A DNA stretch of 64,000 nt from a bacterium (GTDB lineage Bacteria > Actinomycetota > Acidimicrobiia > Acidimicrobiales > CATQHL01): contig JAPOVS010000026.1 in the NCBI GenBank assembly GCA_026708055.1, positions 62,001-126,000 on the forward strand, in the 5' to 3' direction. Position 1 is the stretch's first letter. The number at the start of each line of letters is the position of its first letter. Below, one piece after another: positions 29,088 to 36,400 of the stretch. The notes below the pieces were generated by a model. It was not told the DNA's origin, ran no database searches, and was given only the letters and a program-made list of their open reading frames with translations. Made by a program: the position numbers and the translations under genes.

Positions 29088-29213
29088 GCTGCGAGGATAA
29101 GGCTGGATACCCCGCGAGAGACCTCACCTGTACACTTGGAATGCCCGCGGCAGCCGCGTTGTTGTAGTCAGGCAAGCGGCGCGGCGCGGACGTTTTGACA
29201 GTTGGAGGAGCCG

Positions 29214-31754
<2,541 letters not shown>

Positions 31755-31756
31755 CC

Positions 31757-34000
31757 GTGCGACGCCGGCACGGGCCGGCCGGCGACGCCGGCGGCCTGCA
31801 CGCTCGCCCGCCAGCCCGCGGTGCCCGCGGGGGAGACCGCGGCGCACGGCGGCTGCTGCTCGGGGTCACCCTGGCGGGGGCCCTGCTGGCGGCGTCCGCC
31901 TGCGAGGTGGGCGTGGGAGTGGACGTCGACGTGGCCGAGAACGGCTCGGGCACCGTGGCGGTGGGGGTGAGCCTCGACCGAGCCGCTTCCGACGCGCTCG
32001 GCGATCTCGCTTCCCAGCTGGACCTGCAGGATCTGGCGCTCGCCGGCTGGGACGTCGCCGGACCGGCCCGGGAGGCCGACAACCTGCTGTGGGTTCGGGC
32101 CACGAAGCGCTTCGGGAGCGCCGAGGAACTCCCGTCGGTGCTGGCCGAGATCGCCGGACCGGACGTCTTCGAGGGCTTCCAGCTGCGTCGCCGGACCGAG
32201 TTCGCCGAGCAGACCTGGGAGGTGGCCGGCCAGGTGGATCCCTACGCGGCGCTGCCGGAGCTGTTCGACACTCTGGCGTTCAACGAGGGATTGCGGGAAC
32301 GGATTCGCGGGGCCACCGGTGACTTCGGCGACGACGTGCCGCTGTACGGGCTGACCATCAGCCTGAACATCGATCTGCCGGGCGACCTGCGCAGTGGCGG
32401 CGGCGACTTCACCTGGACCGCTCTCACCGCGGACTCATCGGCGGAGACGGCGACCGCGGTGCGCATGACCGCCCACCAGGAGAACACGACTGCCAAGACG
32501 CTGCGGCTCGTGGGGCTAGCGGCGGCGGCGCTGTTCGTGCTGGCACTGCTCCTGAACGTGCTGGGATGGTGGTACATCAGGCGCTACCGCAAGCGCCGGG
32601 CGAGCGCCCTCATGGCCAAGGCCGACAGCGAGCAGATTCCAGCCGTAGTTGCCGGGGCCGTCGGTGCCCCGCCCGGCGACGCGGCCGGGACGGGAGTCGG
32701 CGCAGTCTCGAGCGCCGGAGGCCCGCTCGAGGCGGAGATCCAATGGGGACCGGCCGAGAGTGACGCGACCGAGACCGTCGGTGACGATATCGACTGGGAC
32801 GAATTGGCCGATGCGGAGTTCGAGGACCTGGCGGGCGACATCGAGGATCTGACCACTGACGGGACCGCCGCGGGTGACTGGACCGCCGCGGGTGACTGGA
32901 CCGCATCGCGCGAGGAGAGCCCCGGCGTCCGGGCGGAGACCGGTGCCATGACCGCCGACCCGGAGGAGTTCGAGGCGACGATCTCGGTGCCGGACGAACC
33001 GTCCGAGGGGTCCGAGCCGATCGCCGGTTGGGTGTCCGCAGAGCGGCCGCTGGCGTTCGACCAGCCAGCGGAAACGACCGAACCCGAAAGCGACGAGCCG
33101 GAGGAGCCCGCCGAAGCCGACGAGCCAGCCGAGGTCGAGAGCGACGAACCCGAGGAGGCCGACGAACCCGAGGAGGCCGACGAGCCGGCAGAGCCCGACG
33201 AGGCCGAACAGCCTGACGAGGCCGAGAGCGACGAACCGGACGCGGCGGACCAGACCGAAACCGAGAGCGAACCGGACGCCGAGGACGAACCGGGCACCGA
33301 CAACGAACCCCACGAGGACGGCGAACCGGACGTGGCGGTCGCGCTGGAAGCCACAGAGGCGGCGACCCCCGCCCCGCCGTCCCGCACGCTCAGGCTTGTG
33401 GTGATCGGGGGCTGGGGCGTGCTGTTCCAGCCGGCCGACCCCGCCGGCGAGTTGCTGGTTCCGTATCTACAGCAGGCAGGTGCCACCGCCTCTCCCGCGG
33501 AGATCCGTGAGTCGTACCGTCTGGCCACTCTCGGTCGCCTCACCCCTGACGAGTTGTGGGAGTCCTGTGGTCTGATCGGCGAGCCGACCTGGACCCATGG
33601 CCCGTACACCGGCCGCATGTCTGTGAGTGCCGGCGCGGCCGAGTTCGTCCGCTCGCTCCTGCGGCGGCGCATCGGGGTGGCCTGTGTCACCAACGACGTG
33701 TCCGACTGGTCGTGGCGGCTGCGGGCGTGGACGGGTTTCGAGGCGCTGTCGCCGTGGGTCGTGAGCAGCGACATCGGCATCCGCAAGCCGGACCCGGGAG
33801 TGTTCGAGATGCTTCGCAGGGTTGCGGAGATCCCCTTCGCCAGCTGCCTGGTCATCGACAACGATGTCCGCACGCTCGATGCGGCGCGCTCGCTGGGCGC
33901 CTCGACCGGCCTGTTCGGCGCACCGCCGACGGGAGCCTCCCCCGCCGGGAGCACTCACCCCGCCGTCGGCGACTTCACGGACCTCCTGCGCCGGACCTGA
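31757..34000 (+). CDS. Lipoprotein (LppM-like) fused through an acidic linker to a nucleophile-less HAD-like domain
   Basis: A 747-residue fusion. An N-terminal export signal ends LAGALLAASAC, a plausible lipobox. Residues about 50-245 resemble the LppM/DUF3153 lipoprotein domain (DVDVAENGSGTVAVGVSLDR). A membrane helix (LVGLAAAALFVLALLLNVLG) and basic stop-transfer follow near residue 250-285. An acidic, repetitive linker (EPEEADEPEEADEPAEPDEA) runs to about residue 535. The last 200 residues are HAD-like: motif II CVTNDVSDW, motif III IRKPDPGVFEML and motif IV CLVIDNDVRTLDAA. At motif I, however, LVVIGGWGVLF stands where the nucleophile Asp is expected. The HAD part should be cytoplasmic. 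GTG at 31757 follows clpC by 2 bases. Confidence 0.8.
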   Translation: MRRRHGPAGDAGGLHARPPARGARGGDRGARRLLLGVTLAGALLAASACEVGVGVDVDVAENGSGTVAVGVSLDRAASDALGDLASQLDLQDLALAGWDVAGPAREADNLLWVRATKRFGSAEELPSVLAEIAGPDVFEGFQLRRRTEFAEQTWEVAGQVDPYAALPELFDTLAFNEGLRERIRGATGDFGDDVPLYGLTISLNIDLPGDLRSGGGDFTWTALTADSSAETATAVRMTAHQENTTAKTLRLVGLAAAALFVLALLLNVLGWWYIRRYRKRRASALMAKADSEQIPAVVAGAVGAPPGDAAGTGVGAVSSAGGPLEAEIQWGPAESDATETVGDDIDWDELADAEFEDLAGDIEDLTTDGTAAGDWTAAGDWTASREESPGVRAETGAMTADPEEFEATISVPDEPSEGSEPIAGWVSAERPLAFDQPAETTEPESDEPEEPAEADEPAEVESDEPEEADEPEEADEPAEPDEAEQPDEAESDEPDAADQTETESEPDAEDEPGTDNEPHEDGEPDVAVALEATEAATPAPPSRTLRLVVIGGWGVLFQPADPAGELLVPYLQQAGATASPAEIRESYRLATLGRLTPDELWESCGLIGEPTWTHGPYTGRMSVSAGAAEFVRSLLRRRIGVACVTNDVSDWSWRLRAWTGFEALSPWVVSSDIGIRKPDPGVFEMLRRVAEIPFASCLVIDNDVRTLDAARSLGASTGLFGAPPTGASPAGSTHPAVGDFTDLLRRT

Positions 34001-34023
34001 CCGCGCCGCGGCCGCCCTCTCCA

Positions 34024-34049
34024 GTCATCCCGGCGAAGGCCGGGATCCA
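34024..34049. repeat. REP-like palindrome, copy 1
   Basis: GTCATCCCGGCGAAGGCCGGGATCCA holds the arms ATCCCGGC and GCCGGGAT. It lies between two convergent genes, where its hairpin could also end transcription. It belongs with the copies at 42461, 46971 and 57707. Confidence 0.75.
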
Positions 34050-34078
34050 CAGCCCGGCGCTCACCTGGCCGGATCGGG

Positions 34079-34735
34079 TCAGTCCCCGGCGGGCGGCTGG
34101 CTGCAGTCGGGGTCGGACCACAGCCTCGACACGGCGTCCTCCACGATTTGCCGGTGATCGAACGCCAGCGTCACCCGGCCGCTCCGCACCTCCGCCATCG
34201 GCACCAACCCGGCGTGGGCGGCATCGTCGCCACCTTGGGGCGTCTGAGCGAGTTGCGCCACGACCGCCCGGTAGGCCACGGTCACCACCCGCATCCGCGG
34301 GTCTCGGTCCGGATGCCCGTAGGCGCCGACCTGCTGCAAGCTGTCGGCCGCCACGCCGATGCCCGTCTCCTCGAGCAACTCGCGGGCAGCCGCCTCGGGC
34401 AGATCCTCATCAGGTTCGACGAACCCTCCCGGCAGGGCCCACGCCCCCTCGTAGGGCGGCTTCCCCCGCCGGACCAGCAGCACCTCGAGCGACCGCTTCA
34501 CCACAGTCAGCAACACGATGTCGACGGTCACGGCGAAATCGCGGCGACGTCCTCTGCGCAGCGCCTCAGGACTGATGAGATCGCCGTAGATCAGCCAATC
34601 GTCCCGGCAGTCGCCATCGATCAAGGTGCCGGCCCGTCCTTCGGCCACGAACTCCTCCAAGGTCAGCCCTGCCCGCCGCGCGGTCTCAGTGACTCTCGCA
34701 ACGACTTCTTCCTCGGTGATGACCTTGAAGTCCAT
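34079..34735 (-). CDS. NUDIX hydrolase with N-terminal extension
   Basis: A 218-residue protein. The first 55 or so residues (MDFKVITEEEVVARVTETAR) form a small helical region of unknown type. The NUDIX domain follows, with the box GGFVEPDEDLPEAAARELLE continuing ETGI, which holds the metal-binding Glu residues. The substrate, a nucleoside diphosphate derivative, cannot be predicted. The ATG at 34735 is supported by GGGAGGG seven bases upstream; the longer frame to 34969 is low-complexity. Confidence 0.88.
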   Translation of the reverse strand: MDFKVITEEEVVARVTETARRAGLTLEEFVAEGRAGTLIDGDCRDDWLIYGDLISPEALRRGRRRDFAVTVDIVLLTVVKRSLEVLLVRRGKPPYEGAWALPGGFVEPDEDLPEAAARELLEETGIGVAADSLQQVGAYGHPDRDPRMRVVTVAYRAVVAQLAQTPQGGDDAAHAGLVPMAEVRSGRVTLAFDHRQIVEDAVSRLWSDPDCSQPPAGD

Positions 34736-34959
34736 TTCGAAACCCTCCCGCGCCAGGTCCGCTCCGGGTGCGTGCGATCGGCGAAGCCTCGTTCCGCTGT
34801 ACGACTCGACAGTACCGCCGGCCCCCTCAGGTCGCCCGGACATCACGCGGAATCGCACACGCCCGCTGAGTGTCTTCCGCAGCCGCGGCCTCGAGCCGGC
34901 CCGGCCGTGCTCACGGTGCCGCGCGCGCGGCTCAACCCTCGCGGCGACAGAATGCTGTC

Positions 34960-35997
34960 GTGAATTCAAGCGAACACGGATTCGAGTACCACCCGGTGCT
35001 GGCGGACGCCTCGGCGTTCCTGGGCCGCGCCGGAGCCGCTCGATTCCTGCTGGTGGGCAGACCGCTCGACAACGGCGACGGTCTGCCTGAAGGCTTCGAG
35101 ACGGTACCCGACTGCCGCCACGCCAGCCCCGAGGCCGCCGCGGTCCTGCCGCGAGGGAATTACAGGTTCGAGAGCCCCGAGGGCGGCGCCGTGATGCTCG
35201 TCACCGACGGTGCCGCCCCCTGCGGTCCCGAGAGCGGCCAGTTCGACCCGGTTGATGACTCGTTCCGCGGCGGCACCTTCGCCTGGTTCCAGCACTACTG
35301 GGGCACCGCCGACCTGATCCCCAAGCCCCGATTCGCACTGCACAACGACGTTGTGACCGTCCCCGGCGGCCGCGAGACGACGGTCAGGGGTCGCGGCTAC
35401 GTCGGCGCCGAGTGGCGTTACCGAATCCGCCTCGACGGTGTCCAGCAGTGGGTGTGGGAGGGCGGCATCGCCCACGCGGAACTCGACGAAGGCTCCGAGG
35501 GCTGGGTGCAGAAGCCGCCGGGCGACCTCCGGCAGGTGGCAGCCACGCTCACGCGGGCCAAGCTGCGCGAGAACCTCACCGACACCGTCTACTCCTTCGG
35601 TGCCACCCGCACCATGTTCCGCGCCTACCAGTTCATCCCTGTGATGAGACTGCTGCAGACCGCGGGGCACAGCCTGACGGTGCGGCGGGCGGAAACGGGC
35701 ACCGCCGGAACCGGGCGGACGGCGGGTCGAGGCACCCGCCCGTTCGCCGAACGCTCGGCGATGCTCATCGCCGACGAGGTGGGCCTCGGCAAGACCATCG
35801 AGGCTGGCCTCGTCTGGACCGAACTGGACGCCCGCGGCGCGGCCGACCGGGTGCTCGTGGTGTGTCCGTCCTCGCTGGTGAGCAAGTGGCGCGACGAGAT
35901 GCGCCAGCGGTTCGGCTATGAGACCGAAGAGTTGGACGCCGCCCGACTGAAAGAGTTACAGGAGCGGCTCGAGAGGGGTGATGTGCCGGCCCGCTGG
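34960..35997 (+). pseudogene. N-terminal fragment of an SNF2-type (RapA/DrmD-like) helicase, cut by an IS481 fragment
   Basis: From GTG 34960 about 345 residues are coherent. They include an N-terminal domain (EWRYRIRLDGVQQWVWEGGI) and helicase motif I ADEVGLGKTIEAGLVWTEL, then motif Ia VLVVCPSSLVSKWRDEM. Coding ends near 35997, just after LERGDVPARW, where the sequence turns into the reverse strand of a transposase. The rest of the helicase (motifs II-VI) is absent from the window. Intact relatives are about 900-1100 residues and usually belong to restriction or DISARM-type systems; here it must be non-functional. Confidence 0.8.
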
Positions 35998-35999
35998 CG

Positions 36000-36400
36000 G
36001 CGCCCCGGCGGCGCTGGGCGCGCAGCTCGATCACCCTGGCGCGCACCCCCGGGGGTGTGCGCGCCGGGCTGGTGTGGGGCCGGCTGGAGCGATCCGCCAG
36101 ACCGTCGGCGCCTTCAGCGAGGTAGCGGTCCCGCCACTTGCGCGCCGTCTTGGCGTCCACCTGGAACCGCTCGGCGGCCGCCGCGACGCTCCAGTCCTCC
36201 TCGAGCATCAACCTGGCCATCGCCCGCCGCGCCGCCAGCGTCAGCTTGGCGTTGCGGTGCTGTGTGATCTGTGCCATGAGCCCTCCTTGGGAGCCGTGGA
36301 CTGTTACAGACCCACAGCATCGCCCGGAGGGCTCACCCCAACGGGGACCCCTCGATCCCCTCAACCCAGGGACCACCTCTCAGGTTGTCACACCTAACTG
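36000..36400 (-). mobile_element. IS481-family element fragment (5' end of transposase)
   Basis: On the minus strand an ATG at 36277, with AAGGAGGG upstream, opens about 92 residues. They include an HTH segment (RRAMARLMLEEDWSVAAAAE, RFQVDAKTARKWRDRYLAEG) and the linker RSSRPHTSPARTPPGVRARV, both typical of IS481 transposases. The DDE catalytic part is missing, and the sequence joins the helicase at about 36000. The outer end is probably near 36400, where TTAGGTGTGACAACCTGAGA (minus strand) could be the terminal repeat. The matching end is lost. Confidence 0.78.

Follow-up and report, generated by a model that had tools for sequence, protein, structure and literature searches.

What does a membrane-anchored lipoprotein do with a HAD-fold domain that has no nucleophile, and does the position of its gene directly behind clpC bear on the answer? 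Both questions are raised by a 747-codon frame in the window (the whole 64,000-nucleotide stretch of DNA analyzed here), whose parts are listed in Table 1. The preliminary description of this DNA had read the protein as a transmembrane sensor that binds a phosphorylated ligand and does not hydrolyze it. The comparison with relatives reported below points instead to a family in which the cytoplasmic HAD domain probably serves for binding rather than catalysis, with catalytic residues lost repeatedly.

One chain encoded behind clpC

The stop codon of clpC (31752–31754) and the GTG start of the fused gene are separated by 2 nt, as first described, and a GTG at +2 after clpC was shared by all six further genus members examined. 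A site scan of 31400–34300 returned no promoter-like or terminator-like site, which is weak evidence in a GC-rich actinobacterium, and no paralogue of the fused gene was found in its own genome. Lipoprotein part, membrane helix, linker and HAD domain do lie in a single frame with bitopic topology. Downstream in the same window, an SNF2-type helicase frame (34918–36264, plus strand; PF00176) appears curtailed where an IS481-type transposase fragment (35768–36376, minus strand; PF13011) begins on the opposite strand.

Table 1. Positions of clpC, the fused gene and the parts of its product in the window
Feature	Residues	Position	Strand	Basis or remark
clpC (ATP-dependent Clp unfoldase), directly upstream		29202..31754	+	translation; homologous clpC upstream in relatives
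Fused gene: lipoprotein, membrane helix, linker, HAD-fold domain	747 aa	31757..34000	+	GTG start
Signal peptide, unusually long N-region, lipobox ASA/C at end	1-48	31757..31900	+	sequence; lipobox conserved across family
Lipobox Cys	49	31901..31903	+	invariant in 50/50 aligned relatives
LppM-like extracytoplasmic domain	49-240	31901..32476	+	family-level profile evidence
Membrane helix, one strong hydrophobic stretch, then basic residues	251-274	32507..32578	+	cytoplasmic side after helix
Acidic Glu/Asp/Pro linker	286-540 (255 residues)	32612..33376	+	
HAD-fold domain	544-747	33386..33997	+	Pfam, PDB sequence search, model
Motif I, IGGWGVLF		33404..33427	+	Gly at nucleophile position (33407-33409); Trp at acid/base (D+2) position
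Motif II Thr		33689..33691	+	
Trp after motif II		33707..33709	+	invariant in 65/65 fused and stand-alone copies
Motif III Lys		33785..33787	+	
Motif IV Asp		33857..33859	+	
C-terminal His		33956..33958	+	57/60 membrane-bound copies, 0/5 stand-alone relatives

With a lipobox cysteine (Cys49) following a signal peptide, the N-terminal part has the hallmark of a bacterial lipoprotein. Its extracytoplasmic domain was harder to place. The window's own copy had no LppM match in Pfam at the PF21946 cut-off; the N-terminal part as a whole received no usable direct assignment from Pfam or NCBIfam, and a PDB search with its family profile gave no match. At the family level, PF21946 (LppM) was matched by 14 of 50 relatives (best 3.7e-7), and alignment of the family profile to a profile of true LppM proteins indicated remote homology (hhalign probability 92.9, E 3.7e-7), the match covering 76 columns of the domain's C-terminal half. 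A HAD profile run as a control against the LppM profile reached 0.1%, and the true-LppM set matched the solved LppM structure 2NC8 at 1e-64. The predicted model of the N-terminal part was poor (pLDDT 61), and the top Foldseek probability among the matches listed, 0.51 for 2nc8 (E 0.25), was weak; the alignments behind the structure predictions were very shallow (3 and 2 sequences). It is therefore fair to call the domain a distant relative of LppM, the relation being remote for the window's own copy: the label given in the preliminary description stands for the family, but the window's sequence on its own has no Pfam LppM match.

The single strong helix (hydrophobic over residues 251–269) is followed by RRYRKRR, and flanks of the positive-inside type hold family-wide, so the C-terminal part is cytoplasmic, in agreement with the topology first proposed. 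The linker that follows consists of 33% Asp plus Glu and 11% Pro and contains imperfect 9/18/36-nt repeats. Linkers of 233–349 residues were found in five other members of the genus vs. 28–90 residues in eight relatives from other genera. The acidic linker of about 250 residues is thus real in the window and its genus but does not extend to the copies from other genera; judged by these sequences, it is genus-specific and no part of the family's shared design.

For the C-terminal domain, Pfam (PF00702, E=1.5e-6), the PDB sequence search and the structural model agree on a class-I HAD fold, i.e., a Rossmannoid fold with motifs II–IV in order. The AlphaFold model (pLDDT 78) was matched by Foldseek to L-2-haloacid dehalogenase and human HDHD3, with E about 1e-9 to 1e-10 and TM 0.73–0.74. 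Catalytic HAD phosphohydrolases carry a DxD motif composed of a nucleophile Asp and an acid/base Asp at +2. In the window's genus this motif reads G-G-W in seven of seven members, all of which have the same motif I (IGGWGVLF) and keep Thr, Lys and Asp of motifs II, III and IV, so that the originally noted combination of intact motifs II–IV with a motif I devoid of its nucleophile extends to the whole set. Neither Asp, Glu, Cys, Ser nor Thr occurs in the motif I loop of this genus, and no alternative nucleophile is evident.

A fusion found in one order

A search with the full protein matched 67 of 99 relatives, in some of them only through the lipoprotein part or only through the HAD part. Across the order, the HAD profile at E<=1e-22 detected 128 of 397 sampled genomes in 44 genera, and 59 of the 62 HAD-bearing genes that were read (one representative per genus where possible, giving 59 fused frames in all) were fused to the lipoprotein part. 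In a phylum sample of 296 genomes whose best matches were inspected, no fused copy was found outside the order, only stand-alone HAD relatives. A read-through or frameshift fusion is ruled out, since the fused frame is intact in many genera; a single one is broken (L075; L and G codes denote loci and genomes of this comparison, f codes families), and it has a run of N in the linker. No orthologue split into two genes was found. A literature search limited to open-licence papers returned no earlier description of this domain order, as the preliminary description had supposed. The architecture, distributed across one order and adjoining a central proteolysis gene, appears not to have been described before.

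Other combinations of these parts were observed in family f52. One locus (L187, 1–1806, minus strand) encodes two hydrophobic segments, a HAD domain and a dienelactone hydrolase (PF01738), apparently without an LppM-like part, and another (L049, 3251–4915, minus strand) encodes an LppM-like part, a helix and a dienelactone hydrolase (PF01738) without a HAD domain. Among stand-alone relatives, two genomes of another class have a HAD gene with a DxMGV motif I placed between carA and carB (L131, 4282–4926, and L132, 1048–1641, both on the plus strand), and in L131 pyrC precedes the carA/carB group; these neighbors were identified by sequence inspection. A plasmid search for stand-alone relatives returned general HAD hydrolases only.

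Active-site residues and the proposed role of the HAD domain

The active site was compared in an alignment of 65 copies, 60 membrane-bound and 5 stand-alone. In 64 of the 65 no acid/base Asp occupies D+2, the single exception being a doubtful alignment. Of the 60 membrane-bound copies, 31 have the nucleophile Asp and 29 have Gly, Glu, Asn, His or Ala at that position. On a quick tree with many open forks and limited support, from which three long or fragmentary rows were excluded, the nucleophile and motif II each required a minimum of 8 changes, Lys 7 and motif IV 5, compared with 2 for the C-terminal His and 0 for the Trp after motif II. Because all five stand-alone relatives read DxMGV, Met at D+2 is probably ancestral; it is likewise the most frequent residue at this position among fused copies, with Trp in the window. 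Since many relatives have the nucleophile yet lack the acid/base Asp, departure from the canonical phosphatase site predates the window's lineage. Members of f18 (and parts of f28 and f25) keep an otherwise complete site, DGMGV...T...K...DD, and to judge from these motifs they may still do chemistry.

Loss of catalytic residues did not coincide with decay of the domain. Within the genus, dN/dS was about 0.10–0.39 for the HAD domain, 0.17–0.32 for the lipoprotein part and about 0.38–0.60 for the linker; with values like those of the lipoprotein part, the HAD domain as a whole is being maintained. Purifying selection acts on it even as its catalytic residues are repeatedly changed. Among copies without a nucleophile, those of several lineages (f1, f55, f45, L184) have GGxG as their motif I loop; a DGxG loop in which a single base change turned Asp into Gly may be all that lies behind this.

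The LppM-like domain lies outside the membrane, lipid-anchored at its N-terminus, and one helix crosses to a class-I HAD fold inside, which we propose no longer acts as a phosphohydrolase in the window's lineage. The outer domain could bind an envelope lipid or amphipathic ligand, by analogy with mycobacterial LppM, which was reported to bind phosphatidylinositol mannosides (PMC6151718). In the cytoplasm the HAD fold would serve for binding or docking; candidate contact residues are the invariant Trp and the His found only in fused copies. The protein would pass the state of the envelope to a cytoplasmic partner, or hold that partner; ClpC is the one suggested by gene order. The repeated loss of catalytic and phosphate-site residues, with Trp and His fixed, speaks for a binding domain in the cytoplasm rather than for a phospho-ligand sensor conserved across the family. 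We put the whole of this reading, i.e., a bitopic LppM-like/HAD protein whose inner domain serves binding rather than catalysis, in a family known so far from a single order of Acidimicrobiia, at a probability of roughly 0.55. Against it, roughly one copy in two still has the nucleophile, and the phosphate-site residues kept throughout the window's genus also fit the binding of a phospho-ligand.

That last point is the core of the reading first given, in which the HAD domain is a dead phosphatase that binds a phosphorylated metabolite or phosphoprotein without hydrolyzing it and signals through the helix. Retention of Thr, Lys and Asp in all seven genus members, and in four of four copies of f55 even though their nucleophile position is Gly, agrees with such a sensor. 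However, with HAD-domain identity of 73–92% inside the genus, keeping three residues is weak evidence, and only some of the lineages without a nucleophile retain the trio: one or more of its residues are lost in f36, f41, f45, G646 (L184), G399 (L163) and G008, the last being the nearest relative in the window's own family and carrying Thr-to-Ala, Lys-to-Glu and Asp-to-His replacements. If the family shared a phospho-ligand sensor, the phosphate site should have been conserved; since several lineages lost it, phosphate-independent docking or binding fits the whole family better. Binding without hydrolysis is therefore not a conserved property, motifs II–IV, kept in the window's genus and f55, having been lost in other lineages. 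The sensor reading may hold for the window's genus; as an account of the protein we consider it unlikely.

Linkage to clpC and relation to known proteins

The coupling to clpC was confirmed as gene linkage. Among the 59 fused frames, clpC immediately precedes 45 in the same orientation; 5 sit at contig edges, and the other 9 do not adjoin clpC, which is 0.6–3.5 kb upstream in six of these nine. This order, seen in 45 of 54 testable loci, together with the 2-nt gap throughout the genus and the lack of a terminator-like site, is what would be expected of a membrane adaptor in which the outer domain governs a HAD domain that, at the membrane, either docks ClpC or supplies it with substrates. However, clpC is also close by in most LppM-like relatives that lack a HAD domain; the linkage is therefore independent of the HAD domain and belongs to the lipoprotein part, so the gene order is not specific to the module that would do the docking, and we regard the adaptor as unlikely. 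By sequence inspection, a universal-stress-protein-like gene precedes the HAD-less lipoprotein gene in six loci (L032, L036, L039, L040, L069, L078).

We infer a functional link to ClpC from gene order alone, and a role in envelope-stress proteolysis would be a guess. In the boldest reading, a lipid-sensing lipoprotein domain would control an ex-hydrolase that docks ClpC, so that the state of the envelope steers cytoplasmic protein unfolding at the membrane; this we consider quite unlikely, and if true it would be a new kind of transmembrane regulator.

Haloacid dehalogenases use a nucleophile without an acid/base residue at D+2. An active enzyme of similarly unusual chemistry, with nucleophile-less lineages as local losses, would accommodate the nucleophile kept in five of five stand-alone and 31 of 60 membrane-bound copies, the Thr/Ser, Lys and DD also kept by the stand-alone relatives and the L-2-haloacid dehalogenases among the best structural neighbors, but it is inapplicable to the window's genus, where the nucleophile position is Gly in seven of seven, and the losses were repeated (at least 8 changes on the tree), so we think it very improbable. 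The HAD domains also form a natural series that runs from a nearly complete active site to its absence. Along this series catalytic residues were lost many times while other residues stayed fixed, and the purpose of a retained dead HAD domain is thereby made directly testable.

Three known groups come close to parts of this protein. To our knowledge, LppM bears no cytoplasmic enzyme-like domain. LppM itself (Rv2171, PDB 2NC8, PF21946) shares the lipobox and the extracytoplasmic domain, with a profile match over that domain's C-terminal half, but the window's copy goes unrecognized by the Pfam model. Hydrolases of HAD subfamily IA (PF00702; DREG-2/HDHD3-like TIGR02252; L-2-haloacid dehalogenase 1ZRM) have the same fold and the same order of motifs II, III and IV, whereas the window's domain lacks the nucleophile and the D+2 Asp, is membrane-tethered and scores far below every NCBIfam equivalog cut-off. 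The stand-alone DxMGV HAD proteins (L112, L084, L085, L178, L188) differ in being soluble, with motifs complete apart from D+2, and in having neither the lipoprotein part nor the C-terminal His; they are nonetheless the closest relatives of the HAD domain that were found, and the invariant Trp is common to both.
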